Origin: Aquipuribacter sp. SD81
GTDB taxonomy: Bacteria; Actinomycetota; Actinomycetes; Actinomycetales; JBBAYJ01
Reading direction: 5' to 3'
Assembly: GCF_037153975.1 (NCBI RefSeq)
Contig: NZ_JBBAYJ010000015.1
Location: 1-64,000, forward strand
DNA length: 64,000 nucleotides
The notes under the pieces were generated by a model that was not told the origin of the DNA, made no database searches, and saw nothing but the letters and a program-made list of their open reading frames with translations. The translations under genes were made by a program, and so were the position numbers. This document shows, one piece after another, positions 43,291-50,833 of this stretch. Each line of letters starts with the position of its first letter. The stretch's first letter is position 1.

Positions 43291-44937
43291 TCAGCGGCCC
43301 GTCACCCGGTACACGGTCGTCGTGCCGGACACCTCGTTGCCGACGACGAGCAGCGGCTCCCCGGTCGGGGAGTCCGCCGCGGCGACGAACACGAGGCCCT
43401 CGGGCCCGCTGTCGGTGCCGTTCGCCGCCAGGTCGCCGGCGAAGTCCCGCACGTTGACGTAGTCGACGAAGCGGGCCGCGCTCGGGACCGTGATGTCGTA
43501 GACGATGACGCCGCCGACGCGCTCGAGCCCGACGAAGGCGTACGTGCGCCCGGCCACGGAGCCCACCTCGATGCCCTCCGGCTCGGGACCCTTGTTGTCG
43601 CTGCGGTTGTCGAAGGAGTCGTTCTCTGCGTTGTCCGCGTTGAACGCCTCGCGCGGCAGCTCTCCGGCCGCGACGAGCTCGGCGAGGACCTGCTCGAGGT
43701 CGTCGCCGGAGTCGAACACGAGCCGGCCCTCGGCGTCCCGGATCGAGAACGACCGGCCGCCGAACACGTCGATGCGGGTGACCCGGCCGTCGGCGTCCGC
43801 GGGGCTCGTCACCGTGCTCGTGAGACGACCGAGGGCGGCGTCGGCCTGGAGGGCCGCGACGGCGTCCGGGCCACCGAAGGTCGCGGGGTCGAGCTCGAGG
43901 TCCTTCACCCGGACCTCCTCCTCGAAGCCGTCGTACTCCCGGGCGTCGCCCTCGTTGGCGAGTACGAGGTACGTGCGGCCGCGGGCGCGGTAGGCGTCGA
44001 CCGAGTCGGGCATGTACATGCCGTGCACCGGCCACGTGCGGATGTCCACCGCACCGTCCCGGTCGGAGGCGTCGAGGCCGTTGCCCGCGAGCGAGTGGTC
44101 CTTGAGCCCGAGGGGCAGCACGTCGGTGACGCGGGCCGTCGCGATGTCGACGACCGCGAGCGCGTTCGCCTCCTGCAGGGACACCCACGCGGCGCGGGAG
44201 CGGGCGTCGACGGCCACGTACTCCGGCTCGAGGTCCTCGCTCACGCTCGCGCCGGGACCGAAGACGCGCACGCCGGCCGCGCGCAGGGCGTCCACGTCGT
44301 CGTCGAAGGCCCCGAAGCCGGCGGTGCGGACGTCGGCCTGGTCCGGCACCCCGTTCCGCGGGACGGCGATGACGCTGATGCTGCCCTCCGGGTCGACCTG
44401 CCCCGCCTCGTAGCCCTCCGGCTCGCCCTCGTTCGCGACGAGGACGTGGCGCCCGTCCGGGGTGAAGGTGAGCATGTCGGGCAGCGCCCCCACCCGCACA
44501 CGGCCGAGCTCGCGGAGCGTGGCGGTGTCGACGAAGGCGACGCTGCCCGCCTCGGTGGCGACGTCGGCCTCCTCGGCCACGGCGAGCAGGCCACCGTCGA
44601 CGTCGACGCTGTTCGCGCCGGGGGTGTCGAGCTCGCCCACCTTGACGAGATGGGAGGGGTCGGAGGCGTCGAGCACGTCGACGGTGCCGCGCTCGGCGTT
44701 GACGACGAAGACCCGGTCCGTGGCGGGGTCGAAGGCGGGGATCTCGGCCGCGGACTCGTCGAAGCCGCCCCCGCTGTAGGTGCCGAGCGGTTCCAGGCTG
44801 ACGGTGGAGGCGGGCCGGCCGGGCGCGCCGCCCGGTCCCGCCTCGGCGCTGGGGGCGAGCACGACACCGGTGACGACGAGCACCGCGAGGGCGCTGCCCG
44901 ACACGAGGGCCGGGAACGGGGTGAGGTCGGAGGTCAT
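43291..44937 (-). CDS. Secreted choice-of-anchor-I family protein (phytase/phosphatase-like)
   Basis: 548 residues with a signal peptide ([20 protein letters not shown], cleavage near AEA-GP). Beta-propeller-like repeats cover the rest: [40 protein letters not shown] and [31 protein letters not shown] near residue 440 is a typical acidic, metal-binding-looking motif of this family. No LPxTG anchor is visible. A PhoP-box-like array sits directly upstream (44961-45073), supporting a role in phosphate scavenging. ATG 44937 is used because the signal peptide begins there. Confidence 0.86.
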
Positions 44938-44960
44938 GCACCGCAACCTGCACGGTCGTC

Positions 44961-45073
44961 GTGAACGCCCCCCGAACCGACCGTGAACGGACCATGACGT
45001 CACCGGGACGTCACCGGGAGGTCACCCGGACGTCAGCGACGCATCACCCGAGACGTCACCGGAGCCGTCACGG
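44961..45073. promoter_or_regulatory. PhoP-box-like array of 11-bp direct repeats
   Basis: On the minus strand, three GTTC elements (GTTCACG, GTTCGGG, GTTCACG; GAAC on the plus strand at 44963, 44974 and 44985) are spaced exactly 11 bp, as in actinobacterial PHO boxes. Next to them on the plus strand, seven GTCACC-like units begin at 44999, 45010, 45021, 45032, 45043, 45055 and 45067, with 11-bp then 12-bp spacing. CAGGTT at 44952-44947 (minus strand) could be a -10 box, placing transcription start very near the ATG at 44937. PhoP control is inferred from repeat form and spacing. Confidence 0.65.
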
Positions 45074-45170
45074 ACGGCCCCGGGGCGGCGGGAGCGGTAG
45101 GGGCGGGCGGGGCGGACGCCGGGGACCGGGTGCCGGGTTCCTCGCGCGCGGGACGCGGCCCGCGGCCGGG

Positions 45171-46154
45171 TCAGCCGTCGCCGGCGGCGCTCAGCTTGGC
45201 GCGCAGCTGCATGACGGCCTTGGTGTGCATCTGGCAGATGCGCGACTCGGTCACCCCGAGCACACGGCCGATCTCGGCGAGCGTGAGTCCCTCGTAGTAG
45301 TAGAGGGTCACGACGATCTTCTCCCGCTCGGGCAGGAGGTTGACCGCGCGCGACAGGAGGAACTTCGTCTCCTGCGTCTCGAACGCCGCGACCGGGTCCT
45401 CGGCCTTGCTGTCCTTGAGGGTGTCCCCGAGCGTGAGTGAGTCTCCGCGCTCGCTGCCGGCGTGCATGAGCTCGTCGAGGGCGACGACGTTCGCGTAGGA
45501 GACCTTCGAGAAGATCGCGTGCAGGTCGCTGATCGCGATGCCGAGACGGTCGGCGACCTCCTGCTCGGTGGGGCTGCGGTGCAGCTCCGCCTCGAGGGCG
45601 GCGTACGCGCGCTCGACCTCGCGGGACTTGCTGCGCACCGAGCGGGGTATCCAGTCGATCGACCGCAGCTCGTCGATGATGGCGCCGCGGATGCGGGAGA
45701 TCGCGTACGTCTCGAACTTGATCGCGCGCTCGTGGTCGAACTTGTCGATGGCGTCGATGAGGCCGAAGACGCCGTAGGACACGAGGTCGGCGTGCTCGAC
45801 GTTGGCGGGCAGGCCGACCCCGACGCGGCCGGCCACGTACTTGACGAGCGGTGAGTAGTGGAGGATCAGCCGGTCGCGGACGGCGCGGTCCCCGGTCGCC
45901 TTGTACTGCGTCCACATCGCGGCGACGACGGCCTCGGCGTCGGCCTTCGCCTCCCGGGCCGCCTCGCGCGCGAGCTCCTCGGGGTCCTCGGCCTCCTCCG
46001 GGGCGTCGACGTCGTCGACGTCGTCGAGGTCGTCGTCGGTGCCCTCGCCCGACGCCGCGGCGTCGAGGTCGAGCACGTCGGGCCGCGCGCTGCGCGTGTC
46101 CCGGCGCGTGCCCCCTGCGCCGCGGTCGTCCGAGGTGGACGTCGCTCGAGCCAT
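45171..46154 (-). CDS. whiG: RNA polymerase sigma factor WhiG/FliA type
   Basis: 327 residues. After an acidic, low-complexity N-terminus (~75 residues) come sigma regions 2 ([20 protein letters not shown], then [18 protein letters not shown]), 3 ([20 protein letters not shown]) and 4 ([20 protein letters not shown], then [20 protein letters not shown]). This order is that of the sigma-28 family, which directs flagellar genes in motile bacteria or sporulation genes in Streptomyces. AAGGGG precedes the ATG at 46154; the ATG at 46175 is upstream in frame but less likely. Confidence 0.93.
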
Positions 46155-46171
46155 GCCGCCCCTTCTGCTCC

Positions 46172-47179
46172 TCACGCCCGCGGATGAGCGCGGTGGTATG
46201 CCGCGAGCAGCCGAGCCTGCGAGACGTGGGTGTAGATCTCCGTCGTCGTGAGCGTAGCGTGACCGAGCAGCTCCTGTACCGACGTCAGGTCCGCTCCCCC
46301 GTCGAGCACGTGGGTGGCCGCGCTGTGCCGCAGGGCGTGCGGGTGGACGTCACGGAGGCCGGCGGCCCGGGCCACGGCCGCGAGCGCGCTGCGGGCCTGG
46401 CGCTGGTCGAGGCGGCCGCCCCGGGCGCCGAGCAGCAGCGCGTCGGGCGAGCGGGGGCCGGCCAGGGCGGGACGGCCCGCGCGCAGCCACACCTCGACGG
46501 CCTCGAGGGCCGGCAGCCCGAGCGGCACCACCCGCTCCTTGTCGCCCTTGCCGGTGACGCGTAGCGCACGACGCTCCCGGTCGAGGTCGGCGAGGTCGAC
46601 GCCGACGACCTCACCGACGCGCGCCCCCGTCGCGTAGAGCAGCTCGACGAGCGCGTGGTCGCGCAGCCCGACCGGCCCGGCCGCCGCACGTGCCTCCGCC
46701 GCCTCGCACAGCGCGCGGGCCTCCGCGACGTCCAGGACCCGGGGCAGGACCCGGGGCCTGCGGGCGGACGCGAGGCGGCCGCCGGGGTCGCTGGGCAGCA
46801 GGCCCTGCCGCACCGCCCACGCCGTGAAGCTCCGTGCCGCGGCCGCCCGACGCGCGGTGGTGGCACGGGACCACTGCGCGTGCTGCCCGGCGGCGAGCCA
46901 CGACCGCAGGTGGGACGTCGACAGGTCGGCGAGTCGCTCGCACCCCTCGGCGCCCGCGTGCCCGAGCAGACCGGTGAGGTCCGACCGGTAGGCGCGGACC
47001 GTCGCCGCCGAGCGCCCGCGCTCCCAGCGCAACCAGCCGAGGAAGCGGTCGAGCGCCTCCTCCGAGCCGGCGGGCCCCGCCGCCCCGGCAGGCCCGTCGG
47101 GCCCGTCCAGCCCGTCAGGCGCGTCCAGCCCGTCAGGCGCGTCGAGCCCGTCAGGTCGCTCGCCGTCCGCGCCCCTCAC
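46172..47179 (-). CDS. XerC-like tyrosine recombinase
   Basis: 335 residues. The catalytic residues are readable: Arg in [13 protein letters not shown], then [15 protein letters not shown] (His-x-x-Arg), [14 protein letters not shown] (second His and the Tyr nucleophile). The N-terminal SAM-like core-binding domain is [20 protein letters not shown] low-complexity leader [18 protein letters not shown] precedes it, encoded by an 18-bp-type DNA repeat at 47090-47155. Position between dprA and whiG is the conserved XerC place, so it probably resolves chromosome dimers. GTG 47179. Confidence 0.88.
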
Positions 47180-47183
47180 CGGC

Positions 47184-48458
47184 TCATGGGACCACGGCGT
47201 CGCCTCCCCCCACCCCGGCGCCACGCCGCCAGCCGTCGTCCCCGCGCTCGACGGTGCCCTCGAGGACCAGCCGGGCGAGCGCGCCCGCCGCCTCGTGGTG
47301 CGCGAGCCCCGTCGCCGCCACCACGTCCTCGAGCCGTCGCCAGCGCGAGCGGCGCAGGGACTGCAGGACCCGTTCGGTCGGCACCCGCGCGTCCTCGGCG
47401 CGCCGGTGCCGGTCACCGCCCCCCTCGCCGGCCGAGGAACCGGCGTCGTCGGAGGCGTCGGCGTCGTCGGAGGCGTCGGCGTCGTCCGCGGCGTCCAGCG
47501 GCAGCGTCGCCTGGCCGAACGGCTCGACGAGCCGGACGACGTCGTCGGCGCACGTCACGCACGGGACACCGTCGCGCAGCAGGCCGTTGCTGCCCGCGGA
47601 CAGCCCCGACGTCACCGGTCCCGGGACCGCGGCGACGTCACGGTGCAGGTCCCCGGCCACCCTGGCCGTCTGCAGGGCGCCGGAGCGGTGGCCGGCCTCC
47701 ACGACGACCGTCGCCCGGGTCCACGCGGCGATGAGGCGGTTGCGCAGCAGGAACCGGTACGGCGCCGGGCGCGTGCCGGGCGGCACCTCGGACACGACCG
47801 CGCCGCCGAGGTCGACGACCCGCTGCAGCAGGTCCGCGTGCCCGGCGGGCGAGGCCCGGTCCGCCCCGCCCGCGAGGACGGCGACGGTGGGCAGGGGCGG
47901 GACCACGCCCCCGGCTCGCAACGTCGCCGCGGCGCCGAGCGCCCCGCCGTGCGCGGCGGCGTCGATGCCGTACGCCGCCCCGGACACGACCGTCCACCCG
48001 CGCTGGACGAGGCCAGCACCGATGTCCTGCGCGACGTGGGTCCCGTACGCGCTGCACATCCGCGCCCCGACCACCGCGGCGGCGCGTGGCGCGTCGGCCG
48101 GCAGCGTGCCACGCACCCACAGGCACGCGGGCGCGGACGAGGCCTCGCTGTCGAGGTCGCCGAGGCCCGAGGGCCACGCCGCGTCACCCGGGTGCACGAC
48201 GCCGACGCCTCGGCGGGCGAGCGTCCCGACGAAGTCGCTGGTCCGGCTGCGCAGCTGCGCGTGACGCACCGTCCACACCTCGGGGCCGCCGCCCCGCCGC
48301 GCGAGGGCGAGGGTCTCCCGCCACCCGCGCTCGGCGAGCAGGCGGTGCAGCGCGGGGTCGCCCGGCTCGGCGACCCGCGACAGGTGCGCGCGGGCGAGGC
48401 GCTCGTCGTGCTCGCAGCCGTGCGCCGGGTCGTCGGTGCGCTGCACGACGGCGCTCAC
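47184..48458 (-). CDS. dprA: DNA-processing protein DprA
   Basis: 424 residues. The Rossmann-like core has AAAVVGARMCSAYGTHVAQD, RGWTVVSGAAYGIDAAAHGG, VVPPLPTVAVLAGGADRASP and GAVVSEVPPGTRPAPYRFL. DprA loads RecA on incoming single-stranded DNA during transformation. A C-terminal winged-helix-like domain follows an Asp/Ala-repeat linker (ADDADASDDADASDDA). The GTG at 48458 overlaps the comM stop (GTGA), so translation was coupled to comM; the element in comM may therefore affect it. Confidence 0.95.
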   Translation of the reverse strand: MSAVVQRTDDPAHGCEHDERLARAHLSRVAEPGDPALHRLLAERGWRETLALARRGGGPEVWTVRHAQLRSRTSDFVGTLARRGVGVVHPGDAAWPSGLGDLDSEASSAPACLWVRGTLPADAPRAAAVVGARMCSAYGTHVAQDIGAGLVQRGWTVVSGAAYGIDAAAHGGALGAAATLRAGGVVPPLPTVAVLAGGADRASPAGHADLLQRVVDLGGAVVSEVPPGTRPAPYRFLLRNRLIAAWTRATVVVEAGHRSGALQTARVAGDLHRDVAAVPGPVTSGLSAGSNGLLRDGVPCVTCADDVVRLVEPFGQATLPLDAADDADASDDADASDDAGSSAGEGGGDRHRRAEDARVPTERVLQSLRRSRWRRLEDVVAATGLAHHEAAGALARLVLEGTVERGDDGWRRGAGVGGGDAVVP

Positions 48459-49327
48459 GCCGCGACCGCCAGGGTGCGGAACGACAGCGCCTCGGCGACC
48501 TCCAGCTCACCCGGCGACGTGCGCCCCGCCAGGTCGGCGAGGGTCCACGCGACGCGCAGCGTGCGGTCGAAGCCGCGGGCGGTGAGGGTGCCGCGGTCCA
48601 CCCCCTTCACCAGCGGCGCGAGGACGCGCGCGGGCGGACGGAAGCGTGGGTGGCGCAGCAGCGGACCGGGCACGTGGCCGTTGGCGCGCGCCGCGCCCGC
48701 CCAGCGCGCGGCCGCCGCGGCGCGGGCGGTGCTCACGCGGCCGGCGACCACGGCGGTCGCCTCGCCGGTCTCCGCCCCCGCCCAGCGGCCCACCGACACC
48801 GCGGGCACGTCGACCTGGACGTCGACCCGGTCCAGCAGCGGCCCGGACAGCCGGGCGAGGTAGCCGCGGCGGACGGTGGGGGTGCACCGGCACACCGGCC
48901 CGCCCGGCGGCGCGCCCGCGTGACCGCACGGGCACGGGTTGGCGGCGAGGACCAGCTGGAAGCGGGCGGGCAGCCGGGCGGAGCCGCGGGCGCGCTGGAT
49001 CTCCACGACACCCTGCTCCAGCGGCTGGCGCAGGGCGTCGAGGACGCCGCGGCGGAACTCCGGGCACTCGTCGAGGAACAGCACCCCGCCGTGCGCCCGG
49101 CTGGCCGCGCCGGGCCGCGGCACACCGCTGCCGCCGCCGACCACGGCCGCGACGCTCGCGCTGTGGTGCGGGTCCTCGAACGGCGGCCGGCGCAGCAGGA
49201 CGGGGTCGGCGAGGGTGCCGGCCAGGGAGTGCACCGCGGTGACGGTGAGGGCGTCCTCGTCGTCGAGGTCCGGCAGGATGCCGGGCAGCCTCGTCGCGAG
49301 CATCGTCTTCCCCGAGCCCGGCGGGCC
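48455..49327 (-). pseudogene. comM: comM/yifB C-terminal part, split off by the inserted element
   Basis: The 3' part of the Mg-chelatase-like AAA ATPase ComM (YifB), a branch-migration helicase used in natural transformation. The reading frame starts inside the Walker A codons (GPPGSGKTMLATRLPGILPD, then PFEDPHHSASVAAVVGGG, GGVLFLDECPEFRR, QLVLAANPCPCG and the C-terminal domain). The 5' part lies at 60169-60848. Joined at the shared core, the two parts total 1545 bp, an uninterrupted 515-codon frame. An ATG within the fragment (49303) could start a truncated protein, but it would lack nucleotide binding. Confidence 0.93.
49320..49327. other. Left attachment core (attL)
   Basis: GGCGGGCC shared with 60169-60176. 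Left of it is comM sequence (CCCCGAGCCC); right of it is element sequence (TAGTCTGAGTC). The integrase gene begins 12 bp further in. Confidence 0.85.
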
Positions 49328-49339
49328 TAGTCTGAGTCA

Positions 49340-50833
49340 GTGACGGTTATTCGAGCGGTCCTCTACACGCGTCTGTCCGAGTCGGACGAGGCTTCGACCT
49401 CTCTCGCGCGACAGGAGGCCGACCTCCGCGCCCTCGCCGACCGCGAGGGCTGGACCGTCACTGAGGTCCTCGCCGACGACGGGCTCTCCGGCGGCAAGGA
49501 CAGGGTGAAGGCCGACCGTGCGCTCGACCTCCTCCGGAGCGGCGCCGCTGACGTGCTCGCCGTCTGGAAGCTCGACAGGTGGAGCCGGCAGGGCATCGGC
49601 ACCGTGGCACGCCTCATGGACGTGCTCGAGGAGCGCCCCGAAGCACTCTTCGTCGCAGACCGCGACGGCATCCGGTCCGACCAGGCCGGGTGGCGCCTCA
49701 CCGCCGCCGTCCTGTCCGAGGTCGCCCGTACCGAGCGGGAGAACACTCAGGTCCGCGTGCGCTCGGCCATCAAGAGGATGCGCCGTGAGGGCCGCTTCCC
49801 CGGCGGAAACGTCCCCTATGGCTACCGCACAGCGGCGGCGCCGGACGGCCCGGGCCGCGTTCTCGAGATCGACCCTGACGAGGCCGCCGTCGTGCGCGAG
49901 GCCGCCTCTCGCGCCATCGCCGGGGAGAGCCTCTACGCCATCTCCAAGGACTTCGGCAGGCGCGGGCTCAAGCCTCGCCGCGCCAAGGAGTGGAGCATTT
50001 CCTCGCTCCAGGTAGTGCTCACGAGCGAGCCCGTCGTCGGTCGCCTCACCAAGGTCTCCCACGTCACCGAGGGCGGCCGCACCCGCCGCGTGCGAGACGT
50101 CGTCCGCGACGACGACGGCAACCCCGTCCAGATGTGGCCGCCCGTCCTCGACCTCGAGACCTGGCACCGCGTCCGGGCACGCTTCTCCGCCCGCGGGGAG
50201 AACGCCGTGGCGCCTCGCCGCCGCCGCGCCCGTCTCCTGTCCGGCATCGTCACCTGTGGACTATGCGGACGGCCGCTGTACGTGCGGACCAACGCTCGCC
50301 AGGACCTCGCCTACGCATGCAGTGCTGGCTCGCAGGGCAAATCCTGCCCCGGCGTCTCGATCTCCTGTCCGCACCTCGAGGACTACGTGACGGAGCAGTT
50401 CCTCGCCGACGTCGGTCCGGCGGAGGTGGTCGACCGCGTCGTGGAGGCGCCCGACGACGCCGACGCCGCCGAGGTGGAGGCCTCCATCGCCGCGACGACG
50501 CGGCAGATGGGCGACGACGACGCCGACGTGGAGGCCCTGTCCAAGCGCCTCGCCGCGCTCAAGGAGCGCCGGGCCGTCATCCGCTCACGTCCGCGAGAGC
50601 GCCGGGTCCGCATCGTCCCCACCGGCCGCACCTTCGCCGAGGAGTGGGAGGACGGCGACCTCGTCCGCCGCCGCGAGCTCCTCGAGGCCAACACGGCCGT
50701 CATGGCCATCGCCAAGGGCAAGAAGGGCCGGAAGACCTTCGACCCGTCCCGCGTGACGTGGGTGACGACGCCACCGCATCCCGCGGACGCAGAGCACCCC
50801 AACGCGCTCACGTCCCCGCGCCGCGTGGTCTGA
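49340..50833 (+). CDS. Large serine recombinase (integrase)
   Basis: 497 residues. The N-terminal resolvase domain has AVLYTRLSESDEASTSLARQ with the nucleophile Ser13, DDGLSGGKDRVKADRALDLL and VWKLDRWSRQG. A recombinase domain follows (RFPGGNVPYGYR, LKPRRAKEWSISSLQVVLTS), then a zinc-ribbon (IVTCGLCGRPLYVRTNARQD, CSAGSQGKSCPG) and a coiled-coil region after residue ~370, the full large-serine-integrase plan. It reads inward from attL. GTG start only 12 bp from the core, with no clear ribosome-binding site. It should catalyse integration into comM, and excision with a helper directionality factor. Confidence 0.95.
   Translation: MTVIRAVLYTRLSESDEASTSLARQEADLRALADREGWTVTEVLADDGLSGGKDRVKADRALDLLRSGAADVLAVWKLDRWSRQGIGTVARLMDVLEERPEALFVADRDGIRSDQAGWRLTAAVLSEVARTERENTQVRVRSAIKRMRREGRFPGGNVPYGYRTAAAPDGPGRVLEIDPDEAAVVREAASRAIAGESLYAISKDFGRRGLKPRRAKEWSISSLQVVLTSEPVVGRLTKVSHVTEGGRTRRVRDVVRDDDGNPVQMWPPVLDLETWHRVRARFSARGENAVAPRRRRARLLSGIVTCGLCGRPLYVRTNARQDLAYACSAGSQGKSCPGVSISCPHLEDYVTEQFLADVGPAEVVDRVVEAPDDADAAEVEASIAATTRQMGDDDADVEALSKRLAALKERRAVIRSRPRERRVRIVPTGRTFAEEWEDGDLVRRRELLEANTAVMAIAKGKKGRKTFDPSRVTWVTTPPHPADAEHPNALTSPRRVV

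Follow-up and report, generated by a model that had tools for sequence, protein, structure and literature searches.

A predicted PHO box and an opposite-strand array of 11-bp repeats upstream of a choice-of-anchor I family gene in Aquipuribacter sp. SD81

Two sets of 11-bp repeats fill the intergenic DNA between a WhiG-type sigma factor gene and a choice-of-anchor I family gene in Aquipuribacter sp. SD81, and the question raised by this locus is whether both sets, or one of them, place the downstream gene under the control of the phosphate regulator PhoP. The original prediction treated all ten units as a single long PhoP-box array next to a secreted, phosphatase-like gene. We analysed the repeats in the stretch of 64,000 nt in which they lie (the window), in the whole genome and in relatives of the downstream gene.

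The predicted PHO box on the gene strand

The choice-of-anchor I family gene (43291-44937, minus strand) is preceded by a putative -10 hexamer, CAGGTT (44945-44950), and the upstream neighbour (45171-46175, minus strand), identified as a WhiG-type sigma factor gene through NF004935 (420 bits, cut-off 343), ends before the repeats. On the strand of both genes, GTTCACG (44988-44982), GTTCGGG (44977-44971) and GTTCACG (44966-44960) follow one another at exact 11-bp steps, the pattern by which a PHO box is recognised, namely at least two direct repeat units of 11 bp with a GTTCACC-like 7-bp core. The two GTTCACG units, 31 and 9 nt before the -10 hexamer, agree with the degenerate PHO unit at 7/7 positions and score 9.6 bits each, the former occupying a position that is conserved in orthologues. 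The unit between them, 20 nt before the hexamer, is weak (5/7, 2.9 bits), and CGTCATG (44993-44999, minus strand), 42 nt before the hexamer, is a possible further unit in phase (6/7, 6.2 bits). A PHO-unit profile trained on the orthologues, with the window left out, gave the three minus-strand units 22.0 bits, among the two best three-unit matches on either strand of the window, while the intergenic region, simulated 3000 times with a Markov model, gave a three-unit score of 18.2 at best, below both repeat sets. The reading of the minus-strand units (44960-44988) as a PhoP-type PHO box is well supported by sequence, and this box very probably controls the choice-of-anchor I gene.

The genome was found to carry phoU and a divergent phoR-phoP pair (G000:C12, about 70.0-72.6 kb), so the proposal of PhoP control stands on this point. 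The best-scoring models were PnpS and PhoR for the kinase and YycF, MtrA and PhoB for the regulator; none of these was over cut-off, and the naming of the pair thus leans on the phoU neighbourhood as well. The genome also has a PHO box at its own pstS, in which GTTCCCC, GTTCACC and GTTCACC, separated by GACC and TGGG, stand at 11-bp steps with a TAGCGT hexamer 31 nt past the last unit; the PHO core of this promoter is conserved in both genus relatives. Another three-unit box lies upstream of L009, a gene that matches a 5'-nucleotidase C-terminal domain, but as the hexamer of this box, TAGCAA, is not of the TANNNT form and lies ~30 nt away, it is no independent confirmation of the spacing. Neither of the perfect GTTCACC pairs at L005 and L007 has a TANNNT in phase or a recognised phosphate gene alongside. 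Most other genomic matches to GTTCACC with two mismatches and to GTCACC with three fell in coding-like frames or before genes that do not look phosphate-related, and these were left out of the count of Pho genes.

The same promoter region bears on the claim that the mRNA would be nearly leaderless, which gained support. CAGGTT ends only 7 nt ahead of the ATG at 44937, a distance at which a leaderless mRNA is likely, and both hexamer and distance recur in the sister species (L066), while the corresponding hexamer of Janibacter, Knoellia and Phycicoccus (TAGGTT, TACCTT or TACCGT) ends 6-8 nt ahead of the start. On these sequences the choice-of-anchor I mRNA of the window is probably leaderless. 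In other lineages, Oerskovia and Isoptericola among them, the leader is longer and carries a GGAGG-like site, so that leaderlessness is not universal in the gene family. The AGGT of CAGGTT was also considered as a Shine-Dalgarno sequence; this is disfavoured, since TAGGTT, TACGTT or TAGCGT at the same place in relatives points to a -10 element. CAGGTT may nevertheless have a double role, as a -10 element and a Shine-Dalgarno sequence.

Promoter conservation and the encoded protein

To follow the promoter in actinobacteria, an orthologue set of 51 loci was used, consisting of L066, 22 of the 80 loci retained from 314 confirmed ones in named genomes, and 28 more that came from a search at the level of the order, where 53 of 198 genomes had a match; with the window, this made 52 promoters. 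The distance from a PHO-like unit (at least 6/7) to a TANNNT hexamer was 31 nt in 28 promoters, 32 nt in six, 42 nt in 14, 53 nt in nine, 9 nt in nine and 20 nt in five, and every remaining spacing occurred in at most four. With two duplicate loci dropped and the window included, a PHO unit stood at 31 nt in 26/50 promoters, a count that the window and L066 enter only with CAGGTT taken as the -10 hexamer (24/48 without them), and at 31 or 32 nt in 32/50; given the kinship among the loci, these are not independent events. At least one rung of this ladder (9, 20, 31, 42 or 53 nt, or one nucleotide more) was occupied in 34/50 promoters, and the other 16 had no phased PHO unit. As controls over the same 50 promoters, reversed or complemented motifs reached no more than two at any spacing and units on the opposite strand no more than four. 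Permuted motifs, a weaker control, had a mean maximum of 4.4, with one permutation hitting 18 promoters at a single spacing. The position of the PHO box relative to the -10 element is thus conserved among the orthologues.

Outside the actinobacteria, 33 proteobacterial relatives were examined for the best pair of CTGTCAT-type, that is PhoB-type, units at 11-bp spacing. In 25 of them the gene strand held the best pair and in two the other strand did, with ties in six, and pairs at p<=0.02 were found in 14/33 on the gene strand and in 0/33 on the other, counts that are not independent as 15 of the relatives are Marinobacter. L103, a record titled Vibrio cholerae strain 35D, contains a relative with GC-rich-looking upstream DNA and no PhoB-type pair, and contamination or mislabelling is possible. 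Among 24 relatives from cyanobacteria and other phyla, a cyanobacterial Pho motif found no convincing upstream match: the scores of five were reached by 0-7 of 100 shuffles and that of a sixth by 17, and the rest were ordinary. Together, the spacing counts in actinobacteria and the PhoB-pair counts in proteobacteria lead beyond the original observation, to a Pho-type promoter that is conserved at choice-of-anchor I genes.

The protein encoded at 43291-44937 belongs to the choice-of-anchor I family, matched over the curated cut-offs by PF22494 (423 bits, cut-off 32, profile positions 13-488 of 489) and NF038117 (570 bits, cut-off 300, positions 1-458 of 458). It had been described as secreted and phosphatase-like; the first part agrees with an N-terminal signal-peptide-like stretch, while the second is an inference, these two families being the only ones over cut-off. 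Profiles of PhoA, PhoD and PhoX gave no match at E<=0.001, Pfam yielded PF22494 alone, and NCBIfam offered, besides NF038117, weak propeller repeats below cut-off and no known phosphatase family. An AlphaFold2 model (mean pLDDT 86.6, pTM 0.87) predicted a beta-propeller, which aligns with known ones, YncE among them (Z 32.1, rmsd 2.3, 291 residues). The third Foldseek match by E-value was 5hrm, a propeller phosphotriesterase (TM 0.46), whereas PhoA, PhoD and PhoX were not named among the structure matches listed, an absence that carries no weight against PhoX or PhoD. In an alignment of 32 sequences many acidic residues stand among the invariant columns, which fits a metal-dependent phosphoesterase, short of proof. 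A phosphoester hydrolase is a slightly favoured assignment for the protein. Among the papers searched, none links choice-of-anchor I to phosphate, and nothing on this gene family stood among the titles listed by further searches. A propeller need not belong to the PhoX family to be a phosphatase, as Psip1 shows (PMC11098088).

The opposite-strand array

Seven units on the plus strand, at 44998-45072 if the base before GTCACC is counted, form the second repeat set, a putative operator. In order they read CGTCACC, CGTCACC, GGTCACC, CGTCAGC, CATCACC, CGTCACC and CGTCACG, with exact GTCACC at 44999, 45010, 45021 and 45055, single mismatches at 45032 (GTCAGC), 45043 (ATCACC) and 45067 (GTCACG), and spacings of 11, 11, 11, 11, 12 and 12. 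TRF described the array as 6.7 copies of 11 bp with the consensus GACGTCACCGG. Elsewhere in the window chains reach three units at most, a length that none of 2000 Markov simulations exceeded; moreover, GTCACCN5GTCACCN5GTCACC without mismatches occurs at a single site in the 3.86-Mb genome, namely the array. The repeats are therefore real as first described, with three minus-strand units exactly 11 bp apart and seven plus-strand units at 11-12 bp, beyond anything simulated. Chains of at least three units on the opposite strand were absent from all 51 orthologue loci, L066 included. Beside whiG in G002, a relative from the genus, only remnants of the choice-of-anchor I gene survive (L067 1390-1830), and a GGTGACGTCACCGG stretch is still there. 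A role for the array as a divergent promoter element was ruled out, as the plus strand has no TANNNT within 45070-45170.

On the PHO profile, trained as above without the window, the array is the best match of the window (24.2 bits for three units). Its units score 7.6, 7.6, 9.1, 5.0, 2.6, 7.6 and 5.9 of 11.4 bits, so that four of the seven lie at 7.6-9.1. It departs from the PHO core in the C that is the first base of most units and in the 12-bp steps at its end, though L143, L154, L157, L158 and L164 have CGTCACC in phase on the gene strand. As the array is absent from the orthologues, opposite in orientation and compatible with MtrA-type boxes too, a run of ten PHO units is not established: the PhoP-box reading holds for the three minus-strand units, on the strength of phoR-phoP, the pstS box and the orthologue geometry, and is plausible, though no more than that, for the other seven. 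That PhoP binds the array is, on its sequence, possible if a little doubtful.

One alternative is that the region holds two operators: PhoP would act at the minus-strand PHO box, and upstream of it would lie a GTNAC array of the MtrA type (or GlnR type), tying phosphate supply to the state of the envelope or of nitrogen. The change of strand between the sets, which had seemed odd, would then be no real feature, as GTNAC is its own reverse complement. The genome encodes mtrA (379 bits, cut-off 300) and is enriched in GTNACCN5GTNACC (38 sites versus none for the reversed pattern); two exact matches lie inside the array, which by its sequence fits MtrA boxes as well. Read on the gene strand, GTGACCTCCCGGTGACG agrees with the MtrA consensus of S. 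coelicolor (PMC5650626), and Streptomyces has sites common to MtrA, GlnR and PhoP (PMC6988585). The pstS promoter of the genome (L192) likewise has an MtrA-type pair, GTTACCGTCCCGTGACC, upstream of its PHO box, but G002 has a degenerate form of it at the matching place, and no counterpart is evident in G001. On an MtrA-type matrix the array pairs take ranks 1 to 3 in the window, yet they reach only 13.4 of 23.1 bits, proportionally less than on the PHO profile, and the matrix was itself built from 11 sites that we chose in this genome and that are candidate MtrA sites only. While sequence alone cannot separate PhoP from MtrA as the protein acting on the array, we consider this two-operator arrangement unlikely as a whole.

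The array could also lack any regulatory role, being an 11-bp piece that expanded neutrally in tandem next to a functional PHO box. The likeness between units does reach past the core to the full 11-mer GACGTCACCGG, as would be expected after slippage, and the restriction of the array to this locus among the orthologue loci and the sister species agrees with such an origin. In contrast, six of the seven units keep PHO-like cores (at least 5.0 bits) despite divergence elsewhere, and the GGTGACGTCACCGG stretch persists at the matching place in G002; we regard a purely neutral origin as improbable. Finally, it is highly improbable that the array is the site of another regulator that damps Pho promoters: in S. 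lividans, removing a stretch with ACTCACCCCCGC-type repeats from the pstS promoter raised its activity about two-fold (PMC2605767), and the array shares with those repeats the TCACC core, the 11-12 nt period and the place upstream of a PHO box, but the parallel is one of resemblance only, the pstS promoter of the genome under study has no such array, and the available part of that report leaves the regulator unnamed.

Three further observations were made by the way. MtrA-type pairs at L190 and L201 stand before genes that, read by eye, are RpfB-like and cell-wall-hydrolase-like, as MtrA boxes would predict, and at L180 (1501-1540) GTGACC stands three times, in 11-bp steps, just upstream of a gene read by eye as WhiA-like. 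Elsewhere in the window, a serine recombinase gene (49340-50833, plus strand) adjoins a gene for a ComM/YifB-like Mg-chelatase (48455-49303, minus strand), apparently without its N-terminal part. The chelatase gene may have been split by an integrated element; in the window, no second attachment site that would match was recognised.

Proposed regulation and the nearest known systems

The explanation that we favour, with reasonable though not strong confidence, is that PhoP controls the choice-of-anchor I gene and that the array has an auxiliary part of some kind in its regulation. When phosphate is exhausted, PhoR would phosphorylate PhoP, which would bind the minus-strand 11-bp units head to tail, strongly at 9 and 31 nt and more weakly at 20 and 42 nt. 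Bound PhoP would stand in for a -35 element and recruit RNA polymerase to make a leaderless mRNA, and the secreted beta-propeller product would most likely aid the release of phosphate from organic phosphorus. The plus-strand array would most likely be an additional, recently expanded operator of an auxiliary kind, bound by PhoP in the inverse direction or by a sister regulator of the OmpR family such as MtrA, and would modulate transcription rather than start it. A bolder and, on the whole, somewhat unlikely extension is that choice-of-anchor I proteins are unrecognised, widespread propeller phosphoesterases induced by phosphate starvation, controlled in actinobacteria by PhoP and in proteobacteria by PhoB. 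In this species, the promoter would also have gained a long inverted PHO array onto which PhoP loads from the other strand, so that the array would act as a local store of PhoP or as a gate for which MtrA competes.

A secreted family whose function we found nowhere assigned is thereby predicted to take part, in several bacterial lineages, in the response to phosphate starvation. The strict ladder of 9, 20, 31, 42 and 53 nt to the -10 element offers a simple search rule for such PhoP-activated promoters in high-GC actinobacteria, and the array, if functional, would show whether inverted tandem sites can tune regulators of the OmpR family.

Among known proteins, PhoX, Psip1 and the Sphingobium TCM1 phosphotriesterase (5hrm) resemble the choice-of-anchor I protein as secreted propellers, a fold that is predicted here; there is no sequence family match to any of them, and a common propeller fold says little about function. 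The PHO boxes of S. coelicolor have, as here, a GTTCACC core, 11-nt direct repeats of several units and an association with phosphate-supply genes, pitH2 having four core units and two weaker ones (PMC7866108, PMC6988585). The locus studied here differs from them in its second, longer set on the opposite strand and in its gene family, which the available parts of those two reports do not name. Actinobacterial MtrA boxes (GTAACCN5GTAACC) share with the array hexamers 11 bp apart and a GTNAC core (PMC12323332, PMC5650626), but as described in these sources they are pairs, as opposed to seven units, and the C at the third base of the array departs from the S. coelicolor consensus. The nearest published precedent that we found for the array, by analogy, is the pstS promoter of S. 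lividans, in which eight degenerate 12-nt repeats lie upstream of the PHO boxes (PMC2605767). While that region serves another gene, and the period of the array is mostly 11, both present degenerate TCACC repeats at a step of about 12 nt or slightly less, directly upstream of PHO boxes.
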